A DNA stretch of 64,000 nt from Kutzneria chonburiensis (GTDB lineage Bacteria; Actinomycetota; Actinomycetes; Mycobacteriales; Pseudonocardiaceae), in contig NZ_CP097263.1 in assembly GCF_028622115.1 (NCBI RefSeq), positions 2,790,001-2,854,000 on the forward strand, read 5' to 3'. Positions 17,151 to 21,848 of this stretch are shown one piece after another; the stretch's first letter is position 1; each line of letters opens with the position of its first letter. The notes beneath the pieces are model-generated. The model saw only the letters and a program-made list of their open reading frames with translations, was not told the origin of the DNA and did no database searches. The position numbers and the translations under genes were made by a program.

Positions 17151-18497
17151 ATGACCAAGCCACTGAAGCAGATCCATCTTGCCGCGCACTTCCCGGGCGT
17201 GAACAACACGACCGTGTGGAGCGATCCGGAGGCCGGCAGCCACATCGAGTTCAGCTCGTTCGTCAAGCTGGCGCAGACGGCCGAGCGGGCCAAGTTCGAC
17301 TTCTTCTTCCTGGCGGAAGGCCTGCGGCTGCGGGAGCAGGGCGGGTTGATCTACGACCTGGACGTGGTGGGGCGGCCGGACACGTTCACCGTGCTGGCGG
17401 CGCTGGCTGGGGTGACGTCTCGGCTCGGGTTGGCCGGGACGATCAACTCGACGTTCAACGAGCCGTTCGAGGTGGCTCGGCAGTTTGCGTCGCTGGACCA
17501 TCTGTCTGATGGACGGGCGGCGTGGAATGTCGTGACGTCGTGGGATGCCTTCACTGGTGAGAACTTCCGGCGTGGCGGGTTCCTGCCGCAGGATCAGCGG
17601 TACTCGCGGGCGGAGACGTTCATGCGGACGGCGTGGGAGCTGTTCGACTCGTGGCGGGCTGACGATGTGCTGGCGGACAAGGCTTCTGGGGAGTTTCTGC
17701 GCCGGGTTGACGCTGGTGCGTTTGCGCACCATGACGGGCATTTCGACATCGCCGGGCAGTTTCCGGTGCCACGGAGCCCGCAGGGACGGCCGGTGATCAT
17801 TCAGGCGGGTGACTCCGACGAGGGGCGGGAGTTCGCGGCGGCTACCGCGGACGCGATCTTCACGCGGCATGGGACGTTGGAGGCTGGGCAGGCGTTCTAC
17901 TCGGATGTGAAGGGGCGGTTGGCGAAGTACGGGCGTGAGGGTCATCAGCTGATCGTGTTGCCGGCGGCGACGTTTGTGCTTGGGGATACGGATGCTGACG
18001 CTCATGAGCGGGCTGCGGTGGTACGGCGTCAGCAGGTGAGCGGGGCTACGGCGATCAGGTCGTTGGAGCAGCTGTGGAACGCGGACCTGAGTGGGTTCGA
18101 TCCGGACGGGCCGTTGCCGGCGTTCGATCCGGTGGTCGGCGAGAACACGATCTCCAGGGGGCGGGCGAGTGATCGCATGCACCGGGATCCGGTGGCTACG
18201 GCACGGAAGTGGCGTGAGCTGGCGGAGGCGAAGAGTCTCTCGATCCGGGAGCTGATCATCGAGGTGACCGGGCGGCAGAACTTCATCGGGTCGGCGGAGA
18301 CTGTTGCGGGTCGGATCAATGAGCTTGTGCAGGCTGATGCGAGTGACGGGTTCATCCTTGTGCCGCATGTGACGCCTGGGGGGCTGGACGAGTTTGCTGA
18401 CAAGGTGGTGCCGTTGCTGCAGGAGCGCGGGGTTTTTCGGAGTGAATATGGTGGGGCTACGTTGCGTGATCATTTGGGGTTGGATGTAGCGGTGTAG
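17151..18497 (+). CDS. NtaA/SnaA/DszA-type FMN-dependent monooxygenase
   Basis: A 448-residue flavin monooxygenase of the family that contains nitrilotriacetate monooxygenase NtaA and dibenzothiophene-sulfone monooxygenase DszA. It starts with KQIHLAAHFPGVNNTTVW, has FDFFFLAEGLRLRE and the diagnostic DHLSDGRAAWNVVTSWD near residue 115. These enzymes cleave C-N or C-S bonds with FMNH2 and oxygen supplied by a partner reductase. GGGGAAGCG precedes the ATG. The codon third positions drift toward G/T over the last 500 bp and merge into a G/T-rich non-coding tract, unlike the neighbouring genes. Confidence 0.88.
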   Translation: MTKPLKQIHLAAHFPGVNNTTVWSDPEAGSHIEFSSFVKLAQTAERAKFDFFFLAEGLRLREQGGLIYDLDVVGRPDTFTVLAALAGVTSRLGLAGTINSTFNEPFEVARQFASLDHLSDGRAAWNVVTSWDAFTGENFRRGGFLPQDQRYSRAETFMRTAWELFDSWRADDVLADKASGEFLRRVDAGAFAHHDGHFDIAGQFPVPRSPQGRPVIIQAGDSDEGREFAAATADAIFTRHGTLEAGQAFYSDVKGRLAKYGREGHQLIVLPAATFVLGDTDADAHERAAVVRRQQVSGATAIRSLEQLWNADLSGFDPDGPLPAFDPVVGENTISRGRASDRMHRDPVATARKWRELAEAKSLSIRELIIEVTGRQNFIGSAETVAGRINELVQADASDGFILVPHVTPGGLDEFADKVVPLLQERGVFRSEYGGATLRDHLGLDVAV

Positions 18498-18626
18498 TGG
18501 GGGTGGGGGGTGTGGTGCTAGGGCTGGGTTGGGTAGGCGTGCCGCGCGGTTGGCGTTTGGGGGGCGAGCAGGTGGCGGTGGGGAGGTTGGGGTGTGGTTG
18601 ACGGGGGTGGGATTTAATTCGGTGTG
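18498..18626 (+). other. G/T-rich tract with G-quadruplex-like runs
   Basis: On the plus strand this stretch is nearly all G and T, with runs GGGGG, GGGGGG, GGG, GGG and GGG between 18499 and 18533. It lies directly outside the left inverted repeat of the DUF222 element. A mirror-image tract flanks the right side (20280-20391). Confidence 0.6.
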
Positions 18627-18749
18627 GTCGCGTGGATTTGGTGTGGAGCCTCTGCGCGATGGCCCAAGGGCTAAAAGCGGGCAGGACGAGCCTGCCCTTG
18701 GCCTGTCAATTGTACGCCATCGCGCCCCTCCACACAAAATCCACGCGAC
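18627..18749 (+). repeat. Structured inverted repeat, left copy
   Basis: A 123-nt element. Its 97-nt core (18640-18736) is identical, base for base, to the reverse complement of 20135-20231. It folds on itself: outer arms GTCGCGTGGATTT/AAATCCACGCGAC (13 bp), then GTGTGGAG/CTCCACAC, then GCGCGATGGC/GCCATCGCGC, and an apical hairpin GGGCAGG/CCTGCCC. It could be the end of a mobile element, a structured RNA, or both. Small open frames inside it look incidental. Confidence 0.85.
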
Positions 18750-18833
18750 TAGTTCGAGTTGCCGTGTTGTGGTGTGGCGGGAGGAAAGAAAAGCCTTTCT
18801 GCCTGGCGGGATTCACCCGTTAGGGATTCGCGT

Positions 18834-18849
18834 TCGATCTTGTGTTCGA
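18834..18849. promoter_or_regulatory. LexA (SOS) box-like site
   Basis: TCGATC-TTGT-GTTCGA differs at one base from the actinobacterial LexA consensus TCGAAC-N4-GTTCGA. It sits 15 bp before the ATG of the DUF222-HNH gene and abuts its -10 element. At least one DUF222 (13E12) gene of Mycobacterium tuberculosis is, as I recall, DNA-damage inducible. Confidence 0.55.
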
Positions 18850-18850
18850 G

Positions 18851-18856
18851 TATTCT
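18851..18856 (+). promoter_or_regulatory. -10 element of a leaderless DUF222-HNH promoter
   Basis: TATTCT fits TANNNT and ends seven bases before the ATG at 18864, which has no ribosome site. Transcription would start at the start codon. Confidence 0.5.
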
Positions 18857-18863
18857 CAGAAGT

Positions 18864-20006
18864 ATGGAACTCACCCGCGACATCGAGAACAGGGAACCCG
18901 CTGGGGCCATGTTCGATCTGGTGGTGGGTGTGGATCCGGCGAGCCTGACACAAGAAGAGTTGGTCAATTTCGTGGGGGTGGCCCGGAAGGTGCGGGCCGT
19001 GTGTGAATGGGCCGAACATGAGGCCCTCAACCACATCGACGACCTCACCGAATTGGCGATGGCCACGAAGGTCTCGGAACCGGCGCTGGCCCGGTCGCAA
19101 GAGATCGCCGCCGGCCTGGAGACCCATCCCGCGCTGGCGGAGCGGTTCCGCCGGGGAGAGATCGACCTCGCCCGGTTCGCCGCAGTCTGGGAACGCACCC
19201 GCCACCTGTCGGACCCTGCCCAGGTCGCCGAAGTCGACCAGGCCCTGGCCGAGGAGGCCGCCGGTATGACTCGGACGCAGGTGTGTCGCAAGGCCACCGC
19301 GCTGGTCGCGAAGGCTGACCCGGATGGCTATGAGCAGCGCTGTCACAAGGCCAAAGACGACCGGCAGGTCGGGATCTCTGCCTTGCCCGACGGCATGGCC
19401 AAACTGACCTGGATCCTCCCGGCCGCTGAGGCCCACCAGCTGTTCCAACAGATCTGCGCCGACGCCAAGTCACTCCCGAAGGACGAGCGCACCACCGACC
19501 AGAAACGCTCCGATGTGCTCTGGGACCGCTTGCGGGGCGAGCACACCAACTGGAACGTCCGCACCTTCGTCACCATCTCCATGGAGACCCTGCTCGGCCT
19601 CACCAACGACCCCGGCCAGCTCGCTGGTTATGGTCCGATCGCGGCCGAGGCGGCCCGGGAGTTGGCCATGCACGGCCCCTTCCGGGGACTCCTCCTCGAC
19701 GAGTACCAGCAGATCAGCGCCATCAGCACCGACACCTACCGGCCCACGGCGCTGATGAAAGAGACGTCCGTTGCTCGGGCCGGCGGCACCTGCACCGCAC
19801 CCGGCTGCACCCTGCCCATCCAGGAACACGACCACATCACCCCCTGGCCCACAGGCCGCACCCAAGCGACCAACCTCCAGGGGCTCTGCACCTGGCACCA
19901 CCACCGCAAACACGACAACTACACAGTGACCCAGGATTCAGACGGCACCACTCACTGGATCACCCCGGCCGGCCGCCATCACATCACCCGCCCCATGCGC
20001 CACTAA
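18864..20006 (+). CDS. DUF222 (13E12 repeat) HNH endonuclease
   Basis: A 380-residue protein: DUF222 over about residues 20-290 (mostly helical, VGVARKVRAVCEWAEHEALNHID), then a C-terminal HNH nuclease with zinc-type cysteines from Cys310 (CTAPGCTLP), the HNH aspartate-histidine EHDHITPW, NLQGLCTWHHHRKH. This family is repeated in many actinobacterial genomes (REP13E12 in M. tuberculosis); its biological role is not established. The ATG at 18864 was chosen from the -10 spacing; the frame is open upstream to 18759. The gene is enclosed by two inverted structured repeats and has an SOS-box-like site, so it may be the protein of a mobile or damage-responsive unit. Confidence 0.92.
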   Translation: MELTRDIENREPAGAMFDLVVGVDPASLTQEELVNFVGVARKVRAVCEWAEHEALNHIDDLTELAMATKVSEPALARSQEIAAGLETHPALAERFRRGEIDLARFAAVWERTRHLSDPAQVAEVDQALAEEAAGMTRTQVCRKATALVAKADPDGYEQRCHKAKDDRQVGISALPDGMAKLTWILPAAEAHQLFQQICADAKSLPKDERTTDQKRSDVLWDRLRGEHTNWNVRTFVTISMETLLGLTNDPGQLAGYGPIAAEAARELAMHGPFRGLLLDEYQQISAISTDTYRPTALMKETSVARAGGTCTAPGCTLPIQEHDHITPWPTGRTQATNLQGLCTWHHHRKHDNYTVTQDSDGTTHWITPAGRHHITRPMRH

Positions 20007-20124
20007 CCAGGCAACGGACACCGGGAAAAGGACTTCCCACAGCCACCACAAAAAGGGTGCACAGCGGGAGTCAAAACCCAGCCACCGCCATTCCTTCACA
20101 CCCCGATCGCCAACTCCCCGAATT

Positions 20125-20241
20125 GGGTCGATTTTGTGTGGAGGGGCGCGATGGCGTACAATTGACAGGCCAAGGGCAGGCTCGTCCTGCCCGCTTTTAG
20201 CCCTTGGGCCATCGCGCAGAGGCTCCACACCAAATCGACCC
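20125..20241 (-). repeat. Structured inverted repeat, right copy
   Basis: Inverted partner of 18627-18749. The core 20135-20231 is identical over all 97 bases to the reverse complement of the left core. The outer arms are different (GGGTCGATTT/AAATCGACCC, 20125-20134 and 20232-20241) yet still perfectly complementary to each other. Three of the outer base pairs are changed on both sides relative to the left copy. A short TTCGGT...ACCGAA match (18618-18623 and 20246-20251) extends the symmetry outward. Confidence 0.85.
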
Positions 20242-20279
20242 ATAAACCGAAGAACCCCCGGAAAACTACACGGCACGCG

Positions 20280-20390
20280 CACCAAACCCAACCCCAGCAA
20301 AGGGCGGGCGGGCGGGCCACCAAACCCAACCACCGCACACCACCCACCACACCAACCCCCACACCCACCCACAACACAACCACCCACACC
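20280..20390 (-). other. A/C-only tract (G/T-rich on the minus strand)
   Basis: After a short GGGCGGGCGGGC stretch the plus strand from about 20318 to 20390 is almost free of G and T. Read on the minus strand it has repeated GGG runs, as in the tract at 18498-18626. It trails the small gene at 20391-20684, mirroring how the left tract trails the monooxygenase gene. No gene is seen here. Confidence 0.6.
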
Positions 20391-20684
20391 CTAAGTCCCA
20401 AACAAATCCGCAACCAACCCCGCCGCCGCGACCGGCGCCCGAACCTCAAACCCCAACCGATCGTCCGCCAATCTCAACGTGAACTCAAAAAACGGACAGC
20501 ACCGCAACTCCGCCGCCGCCAGTCCAGCCACCTGACCTGCCATCCCCACCGGCAGCACAAACCGAATCCCGCGCTCAACCGGCTCGCTCCGCACAGCGGT
20601 CGTCAGCAGCCGCCGCCACTGCTCAGCACGGTCCTGTTGCTCCCCGCCGTCAAGCGAGCAGGCGATGATCGGTTCCTCGGACAC
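20391..20684 (-). CDS. Small CCPFF-motif protein, function unknown
   Basis: A 97-residue protein with RFVLPVGMAGQVAGLAAAELRCCPFFEFTLRLADD. The ELRCCPFF segment is known from small proteins and C-terminal extensions associated with heavy-metal MerR-type regulators, where the cysteine pair may bind metal; that role is an inference. It follows the thiolase gene on the same strand after 10 bp and could share its transcript. Codon use becomes G/T-rich toward the 3' end. Confidence 0.65.
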   Translation of the reverse strand: MSEEPIIACSLDGGEQQDRAEQWRRLLTTAVRSEPVERGIRFVLPVGMAGQVAGLAAAELRCCPFFEFTLRLADDRLGFEVRAPVAAAGLVADLFGT

Positions 20685-20694
20685 GCCCCCAAAT

Positions 20695-21848
20695 CTAGGG
20701 CAGCCGCTCGATGATCGTCACGTTCGCCTGGCCGCCACCCTCGCACATGGTCTGCAGCCCGAACCGCCCACCCGTGCGCTCCAGCTCGCTCAGCAGCGTC
20801 GCGGTCAGCTTCGTGCCGGTGGCCCCGATCGGATGCCCCAACGCGATCGCCCCACCGTTGACGTTGACCCGGTCCAGGTCGACCTTGAGCTCCTTCGCCC
20901 AGGCCAGCACCACACTGGCGAACGCCTCGTTGACCTCGAAGAGATCGATGTCCTCGATCGTCATCCCCGCCTTGCCCAGCGCATGCCGCGTCGCCCTGAT
21001 CGGCGCGGTCAGCATAAAAACAGGATCCGCGCCCCGCGCCGACAAGTGATGCACCCGTGCACGCGGCGTCAACCGATGCGTCCGAACGGCCTCCTCCGAC
21101 GCCACCAACACCGCACTAGCCCCATCCGAAATCTGGCTGGCCAGCGCCGCCGTCACCCACCCCCAGGCCGCAAGGTCTTCAACGCCGCCATCTTCTCGAG
21201 ACTCGTCTCCCGCCGAGGCCCCTCGTCAACCGCCACGTCACCCACCGGCACGATCTCTCGCTCGAACCGCCCCGCCCCGATCGCCTCGATCGCCCGAGCG
21301 TGACTGCGGAAGGCGAACTCCTCCATCTCCTCCCGCCCGATCTCCCACCGCTGCGCGATCAGATCAGCCGCCCGGAACTGCGAGATCTCCTCCGACCCGT
21401 ACCGATGAGCCCAGCCGTCACACCCCTCCAACGGCGTCTCGAACCCGAACTGCGACCCCACGGTCATCGCCGCGCCGATCGGGATCCGGCTCATGCTCTG
21501 CACGCCACCGGCCACCACCAGATCGGCCGTCCCGCTCAACACCGCCTGCGCCGCAAAGTGCATCGCCTGCTGGCTGGACCCGCACTGCCGATCCACGGTC
21601 ACGCCCGGCACTTCCTCCGGGAACCCGGCAGCCAGCCAAGCCGTACGGGCCACATCGCCCGCCTGCCCACCGATCGTGTCCACGCAGCCCAGGATCACGT
21701 CGTCCACCTCGCCCGGATCCACGTTCACCCGCGCGAGCAGTCCCTCGATGGCGCGGGCGCCGAGGTCGGCCGGGTGCAGGTGGCTGAGCCCGCCACCGCG
21801 CCTGCCGACCGGCGTCCGCACCGCGTCAACCAGGTACGCCTGGGCCAT
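20695..21848 (-). CDS. fadA6: Thiolase (acetyl-CoA acetyltransferase, FadA6-like), broken by an apparent one-base frameshift
   Basis: Two frames together make a complete thiolase of about 384 residues. The first (21848 down to a TGA at 21153) has the nucleophile Cys89 in DRQCGSSQQAM; the second (from a GTG at 21156) has ASQISDGASAV, the catalytic His in GGAIALGHPIGATG and the second Cys in TMCEGGGQAN. The break is at GGGGGTGGG; one more G joins LRPGG to VTAALASQISDGA in the normal thiolase order. As written the halves overlap as GTGA, so coupled translation of two halves cannot be excluded. Thiolases cleave 3-oxoacyl-CoA. Its place after the TetR gene matches fadA6 in the mycobacterial KstR2 regulon. 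Confidence 0.75.

Follow-up and report, generated by a model that had tools for sequence, protein, structure and literature searches.

A probable mobile element with a DUF222-HNH gene between inverted DNA hairpins, and a strand-specific cytosine halo around its copies, in Kutzneria chonburiensis

REP sequences are palindromic repeats that, in inverted orientation, flank a single nuclease-type gene, the RAYT, and that occur elsewhere as solo palindromes. The 13E12 genes of mycobacteria are assigned to the LexA regulon in the available portions of two papers (PMC5005354, PMC4181829), the second of which gives the M. tuberculosis SOS box as TCGAAC(N4)GTTCGA, and a preprint, available in part, describes frequent gene conversion among 13E12 repeats (PMC13061034). 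DUF222/13E12 genes recur in actinobacteria and have no assigned function in the portions of the literature examined. Here we describe a DUF222-HNH gene in a 64-kb stretch of K. chonburiensis DNA (positions 2790001-2854000 of a 10.41-Mb single contig; hereafter the window, within which the five-digit coordinates below are counted). Together with near-identical inverted DNA hairpins at both ends, this one gene very probably forms a mobile element of ~1.7 kb, and the hairpin ends offer a candidate substrate for its product.

The ends of the unit are two 113-nt arms (18632-18744 and 20127-20239), found by a repeat search to be 98% complementary and spaced 1382 nt apart. The original prediction described a 97-base inverted identity between 18640-18736 and 20135-20231; this is confirmed, and perfect identity extends to 107 bases (18635-18741). 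The shorter outer match that it noted is also present, TTCGGT at 18618-18623 being the inverse of ACCGAA at 20246-20251 (both read on the plus strand), and TTCGGT stands at the left end of the copies inspected. Each arm is in addition an imperfect palindrome, giving an upstream hairpin at 18622-18754 and a downstream hairpin at 20117-20249, whose canonical strand, defined as that reading GTGGAGCCTCTG, is plus and minus, respectively. On either strand the folding energy is far below that of shuffled sequences (z -8.3 as RNA with some flank and -7.1 as DNA for the upstream arm; -7.5 and -7.0 for the downstream arm), and the two strands of the hairpin fold equally well as DNA (-36.6 vs -36.5 kcal/mol). 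Beyond the common core the outer stems differ yet remain self-complementary, with GGTCGCGTGGATTT at the upstream end and GGGTCGATTT at the downstream end. Since the arm recurs 31 times at full length in the genome and folds far better than shuffled sequences, the inverted repeat is not a product of chance.

A search of the whole contig with the arm returned 34 matches, comprising 31 full-length arms, one partial match (to the opposite strand of one arm) and two short matches (~20 nt). The full-length arms form 15 inverted pairs and one single arm at 8768361. In the same genome 24 DUF222 matches were found, none with an internal stop, and 15 of them sit inside the 15 pairs, so that the expected arrangement of the core in inverted pairs around DUF222 genes holds, with a stop-free gene, for every pair. 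The right tail (20240-20300, plus strand) is alike in most of the 15 copies and clearly different in three (loci L032, L037 and L044). Mean pairwise identity among the copies is 99.5% for the upstream arm, 98.4% for the downstream arm and 91.6% for the coding sequence; the arms are near-identical while synonymous sites have diverged, which argues for strong constraint or homogenisation. The single arm (L046) adjoins a divergent DUF222 gene with 76% identity to the window protein. Several copies, including the one in the window, lie between convergent genes. Sampled GC skew placed the origin without clarity, and we presume a terminus near 2.2 Mb because dnaA lies at 7.40 Mb. All 15 pairs fall within 1.87 Mb of this presumed terminus (P 2e-7, the arc having been set after the fact), and 12 of the 15 DUF222 genes are oriented against the fork (p 0.035).

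Comparison with related genomes bears directly on mobility. The left neighbour gene (17151-18497) has orthologs in four other Kutzneria genomes (87-91% protein identity), and both window neighbours occur in three genomes (G002, G003 and G004) that lack the unit there; only 167 nt separate the aligned flanks in G002, compared with 1,951 nt in the window, and the gap contains an unrelated palindrome. Sites without the unit were present in relatives for the four elements examined (L031, L032, L034 and L041), and 24 loci with orthology to one flank or to both contained neither the arm nor a DUF222-like open reading frame (ORF) of at least 150 aa. Because relatives lack the unit at all four sites examined, we conclude that it inserts, in support of the proposed element with long structured ends and empty sites in relatives. 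A different family of intergenic palindromes (CGCGAGTCCCGC...GCGGGACTCG, or parts of it) occurs in other Kutzneria where K. chonburiensis has an element (L186-L188, L197).

The DNA directly outside the ends is marked by a depletion of cytosine. A GT-rich tract (at least 83% in 60 nt; 18458-18648) overlaps the end of the left-hand neighbour within a C-depleted halo, and its mirror, a CA-rich tract (20305-20434), runs into the right neighbour gene; these are the only such tracts in the window, and 400 kb sampled elsewhere in the genome contained one GT or CA tract. Across the 15 copies, read on the strand running toward the element, the GT fraction adjacent to the element is 0.79, a value that includes the element tails, and on either side it declines to 0.52 at distances above 2 kb; in 22 of 30 flanks it is greater in the 200-1000 nt interval than in the 1500-3000 nt interval (Wilcoxon p 2e-5). 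On the same strand we compared C>T plus C>G with G>A plus G>C changes. At window sites where three unit-less outgroups agree, the left flank within 1 kb has 45 C>T and 38 C>G changes at 256 C, compared with 2 G>A and 1 G>C at 232 G, and the right flank at 300-1000 nt has 42 of 159 C and 2 of 150 G changed. Pooled over eight elements, 545 of 3238 C and 77 of 2727 G within 1 kb are changed (p 2e-78), a set made up of the window copy and seven elements reached by query, with 14 of 16 flanks informative and at least two outgroups agreeing; it covers L031-L037 and L041 of the 15 elements, with the upstream flank alone for L036 and L037. The pooled excess fades over 2 kb, with a small remainder at 2.2-3.6 kb (190/2571 vs 121/2690), and no type of change at A or T exceeds about 3%. 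The effect is strong at L034, L035, L036 and L041. We are confident that this strand-specific cytosine halo is real and arose after the lineages split.

Two other causes of the halo are not favoured. The effect is greater near the element than far from it in 13 of 18 flanks whose neighbour gene points toward the element and in 10 of 12 whose gene points away (by a simple ORF rule), so that the halo is not due to transcription of the neighbours. Replication orientation is disfavoured, since both flanks of a pair are affected. No clear deaminase motif surrounds the mutated C, the context of which is dominated by codon constraint.

The gene between the arms (18864-20006, plus strand; 380 aa) encodes a DUF222 protein (Pfam PF02720, E 1.9e-21, 77.1 bits against a cut-off of 24.4) with an HNH nuclease region at about residues 298-353 (19755-19922), where PHROGs family phrog_333 matches residues 298-349 (E 3.7e-8) along with several further HNH PHROGs; a Pfam HNH domain was not matched even at E<=10. 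It is the sole gene of the unit with family support, in line with the single nuclease-type gene that had been proposed, DUF222 being recognised by Pfam and HNH by PHROGs rather than Pfam. The unit thereby differs from one built on a Y1/HUH transposase of the REP-RAYT type. NCBIfam IscB, representing RNA-guided HNH proteins, matched only at E 0.096 (11.8 bits against a cut-off of 175), no PADLOC model of anti-phage defence matched at E<=1, and a search for solved structural homologues returned none at E<=1. Among the nine of 15 copies that have the exact start motif (six were dropped), pN/pS is 0.095 (pN 0.025, pS 0.26), and the gene is under purifying selection. A motif resembling an SOS box, TCGATC-TTGT-GTTCGA, lies 5' of the gene (18834-18849, plus strand) in all 15 elements; a search of the genome for the exact 16-mer found no further occurrence, and 1 and 1 matches were obtained with the reversed pattern as a control. 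Judged from this motif, the gene is probably under SOS/LexA control.

Alignment of 28 arms from five Kutzneria genomes indicates that the pairing of the hairpin is maintained by compensatory change. Under a structure that was obtained from this alignment itself and is therefore at an advantage, 97.9% of 1117 cells are paired and 120 both-side changes were counted vs 4 one-side changes; the covariation score was reached by none of 500 shuffles, and slid structures paired at most 47.4%. G-U is found at one column pair in 26 of the 28 sequences and is rare elsewhere (8 cells). Because one-side states are scarce, pairing as DNA, or the copying of palindromes from arm to arm, is a likelier cause than pairing as RNA. 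We rejected an RNA function for the arms, given this pattern and the lack of any Rfam family at E<=1 in 17500-21500. A TANNNT box (TACAAT, TAAGCT or TACGCT), read on the strand opposite the canonical one, is found at a single position in 40 of 41 unique arms from Kutzneria and in 20 of 21 further hairpins picked from the loci retrieved, several of them near-identical copies. In the window it takes the form of a -10-like TACAAT, which in the upstream hairpin sits in the bulge and points outward (18709-18714, minus strand) and in the downstream hairpin lies at 20157-20162 (plus strand), and in both arms a putative -35-like TTGTGT lies 17 nt upstream of it (18732-18737, minus strand; 20134-20139, plus strand). 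The three most distant hairpins keep TACGCT and have no clear -35 by eye. The box resembles a promoter -10 placed in an unpaired bulge, and may equally be a protein-recognition motif.

Arms were found by DNA search in five of seven Kutzneria genomes, K. chonburiensis included, and by covariance model in a sixth (G006). Pairs with an overall span of ~1.5-1.95 kb, measured between their outer ends, were located in G001, G002 and G004, and some G002 arms have only a fragment as partner. One G002 element (L067) combines a TAAGCT arm with a TACAAT arm, a mixture of hairpin subtypes that is suggestive of recombination between elements. In the family, which we take to be Pseudonocardiaceae, the model matched 21 of 150 genomes and 9 of 46 genera, at most 22 best hairpin matches per genome being considered; class-wide it matched 4 of 394 genomes, namely K. 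chonburiensis and three of one genus (E 2e-4 to 9e-4).

Outside the pair-bearing genomes, 3 of 20 hairpin loci (L088-L103 and L109-L112; 19 from other genera and one from Kutzneria genome G006) have a DUF222 ORF within 1.5 kb in a phmmer search based on the window protein, a test that may overlook divergent DUF222 copies. The original prediction would have been undermined by a core dispersed without DUF222 genes; no such dispersal is seen in K. chonburiensis, and it is seen at 17 of these 20 loci, all in other genera. Hairpins without DUF222 nearby read as solo derivatives or relatives of the element. At least four further G035 hairpins adjoin DUF222 matches by coordinates. In Kibdelosporangium aridum (G147) the solo copies have a unit of ~380 nt in common, and the orthologous site of one of them measures 53 nt in G069 vs 460 nt in G147. 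By eye, most of 20 K. aridum solos (L113-L132; not L130) lie within GGCGCGC arrays with ~21-nt spacing, a motif that matches the outer stem of the hairpin.

The association extends beyond these solos. In another genus, two of four fetched DUF222 loci of G072 (L268 and L269) lie inside 143-149-nt inverted hairpins with 92-93% identity; the two genomes of this genus, G072 and G039, have 61 and 50 DUF222 matches, some with 143-149-nt inverted hairpin ends. A broader model (R2) found a hairpin at 7 of 20 further DUF222 loci, hand-picked from the high-scoring matches listed, three of the seven having fed the model, and found none in 400 kb of K. chonburiensis control DNA. The association of hairpin and DUF222 is real, though not universal. 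A viral or plasmid origin was considered and rejected: viral_contigs gave no match to the hairpin pattern, a protein scan of viral_contigs gave seven pattern stretches with no relative among them, and plasmid and phage matches were few (7 and 7 records), all below 60% identity.

At the one solo that could be resolved, the strand affected follows the hairpin. At paired elements the halo is mirror-symmetric. At a solo common to G111 and G060 and absent from G022 (L110), the canonical strand is hit on both sides, with 102 of 466 C and 16 of 558 G changed within 1.2 kb, in a test with one outgroup in which direction is unpolarised and the left-side data start at 600 nt; further out, the right side is symmetric at 1.2-4.5 kb (113/969 vs 117/1012) and the left side is still asymmetric at 1.2-2.0 kb (18/79 vs 5/75). 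Composition gives the same polarity, the canonical strand being GT-rich within 100 nt on both sides in 19 of the 20 hairpin loci of other genomes (the exception is L095) and, on average, at the 20 K. aridum solos, two of which are shared with that set. Within the element, third-position GT falls along the gene from 0.52 through 0.46 to 0.32, as predicted. These results suggest recurrent exposure of one strand, set by the polarity of the hairpin.

A mechanism can be proposed in which DNA damage would lift LexA repression and the HNH protein would be made, recognise the hairpin via the conserved bulge (TACAAT, TAAGCT or TACGCT) and make a nick in one strand. Removal or displacement of the non-canonical strand over ~1-2 kb would then leave the canonical strand single-stranded, and error-prone synthesis by SOS polymerases would refill the exposed tract and give rise to C>T and C>G changes; the same nick could initiate the copying of an element, or of a solo, to other sites. 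LexA control, nicking by DUF222-HNH, strand removal, fill-in by SOS polymerases and the route of transposition are steps that we infer. One SOS-induced HNH protein acting on hairpins would account jointly for the ends, for the SOS-like box, for selection on the gene, for the solos and for the polarity of the halo, and we consider an SOS-induced, hairpin-directed nicking element a plausible account, if somewhat short of a probable one. The wider proposition is more tentative, and we rather doubt it as it stands: that DUF222-HNH proteins are a class of hairpin-directed, strand-specific nickases mobilising palindromic elements under SOS control, their hairpins being one-strand hot spots of cytosine hypermutation over 1-2 kb.

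A number of observations weigh against this account. Standard repair tracts do not involve the loss of a strand to both sides of a nick, and a target-site duplication was not evident in the four empty-site comparisons or the copies inspected, the element ends grading into tails. The number of pair types in the hairpin alignment is not above that of shuffles (385 of 500 were as high). In Kutzneria sp. 744 (G003) the fetched arms (L073-L076) are single, with no partner detected at that sensitivity; G121 and G064 have hairpins and no DUF222 match at E<=1e-3, and 13 of the 20 further DUF222 loci gave no hairpin with model R2. The halo is weaker at L031, L032, L033 and L037, and is absent upstream of L031 (11/153 vs 8/92); these copies may be younger insertions. 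A substitution test at a second solo (L117, K. aridum) gave no clear call of asymmetry. Inside the element, minor alleles show a weak trend (over the first third of the gene, 37 on 109 columns for C vs 23 on 120 for G; over the last third, 33 on 144 for C vs 24 on 84 for G), and the leader behind the 5' hairpin has an excess of G (10 vs 1), opposite to prediction.

Such an interior signal, weak or contrary, is what would be expected if double-strand breaks at the ends, through excision or cutting at both, were followed by 5'-3' resection that exposes the 3'-ended strand, the cytosines of which then mutate. This alternative also predicts the exact mirror pattern of the paired elements, and because that pattern fits breaks with resection as well, it is the solos that separate the nick from the break. 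Resection predicts mirror symmetry at solos, whereas the L110 solo is hit on the same strand on both sides and the 20 Kibdelosporangium solos are on average canonical-strand GT-rich on both sides, and we regard breaks as unlikely. The hairpins could also be passive, extruding on the lagging-strand template, stalling synthesis and leaving gaps, with DUF222 either a passenger or a nuclease gene in its own right. Stalling of synthesis is to be expected at long hairpins, and the clustering of the pairs around the presumed terminus would suit such a process; however, the arms of a pair lie on opposite strands, yet both flanks are hit to a similar degree, solos in both orientations share the canonical-strand bias, and the two strands fold equally well as DNA, which makes a passive role quite improbable.

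The TANNNT box, fixed in position in nearly all hairpins (40 of 41 and 20 of 21) and separated in the window by 17 nt from TTGTGT, would be accounted for if the hairpin were a promoter, perhaps one acting on single-stranded DNA as in Frpo and sso, with the halo stemming from transcription or a single-stranded transfer state. Folding of Frpo rebuilds -10 and -35 boxes, according to the available part of PMC9849209. Transcription would expose the non-template strand, however, whereas the mutated strand is the template; DNA upstream of the promoter is affected too, and the most distant hairpins are the three without a clear -35 by eye. We give this explanation little credence. Still more remote is selection for the GT/CA bias itself, for instance as Rho-type termination signals outside a bidirectional terminator: it would suit the copies that lie between convergent genes, that of the window among them, but the bias extends for 1-2 kb into the coding sequence of neighbours, consists of changes at C and is present also where neighbour genes point away. 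The nicking of one strand at the hairpin thus stays our preferred explanation.

Among the matches listed in a search of the open-access literature, and in the portions of these papers that were available, no description of hairpin ends or of a mutation halo at DUF222 genes was found. The gene family is known; judged on that limited basis, the hairpin ends and the cytosine halo around the insertion are new. The halo is an evolutionary record of which strand was exposed and how far, so that the mechanism is open to study from sequence across many genomes. If the proposed mechanism is true, an insertion that focally hypermutates its neighbours, coding sequence included, would add a novel means by which mobile elements remodel their hosts, and would parallel targeted somatic hypermutation in bacteria, with a selfish element as the driver.

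Kataegis and AID-type somatic hypermutation in eukaryotes share with the halo strand-coordinated changes of C near breaks or single-stranded DNA, as far as the accounts drawn on extend; the halo differs in being fixed over evolution around a bacterial insertion, with no deaminase identified. Frpo (PMC9849209, available in part) and sso1 of ICEBs1 likewise have hairpins with -10/-35-like boxes that form in single-stranded DNA, but are located on plasmids or integrative and conjugative elements (ICEs), whereas the window hairpin is known from its sequence. REP13E12/13E12 of mycobacteria are similar as repeated, LexA-linked DUF222-HNH genes with mobile-element characteristics (PMC5005354, PMC4181829); compared by description, they differ in that hairpin ends and a mutation halo are absent from the available portions of the accounts in PMC5005354, PMC4181829 and PMC13061034. 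In architecture the element shares with REP/RAYT systems the inverted palindromes around one nuclease-type gene and the solos. RAYTs are Y1/HUH proteins and REPs are short, whereas the element described here combines a DUF222-HNH protein with hairpins of ~130 nt.

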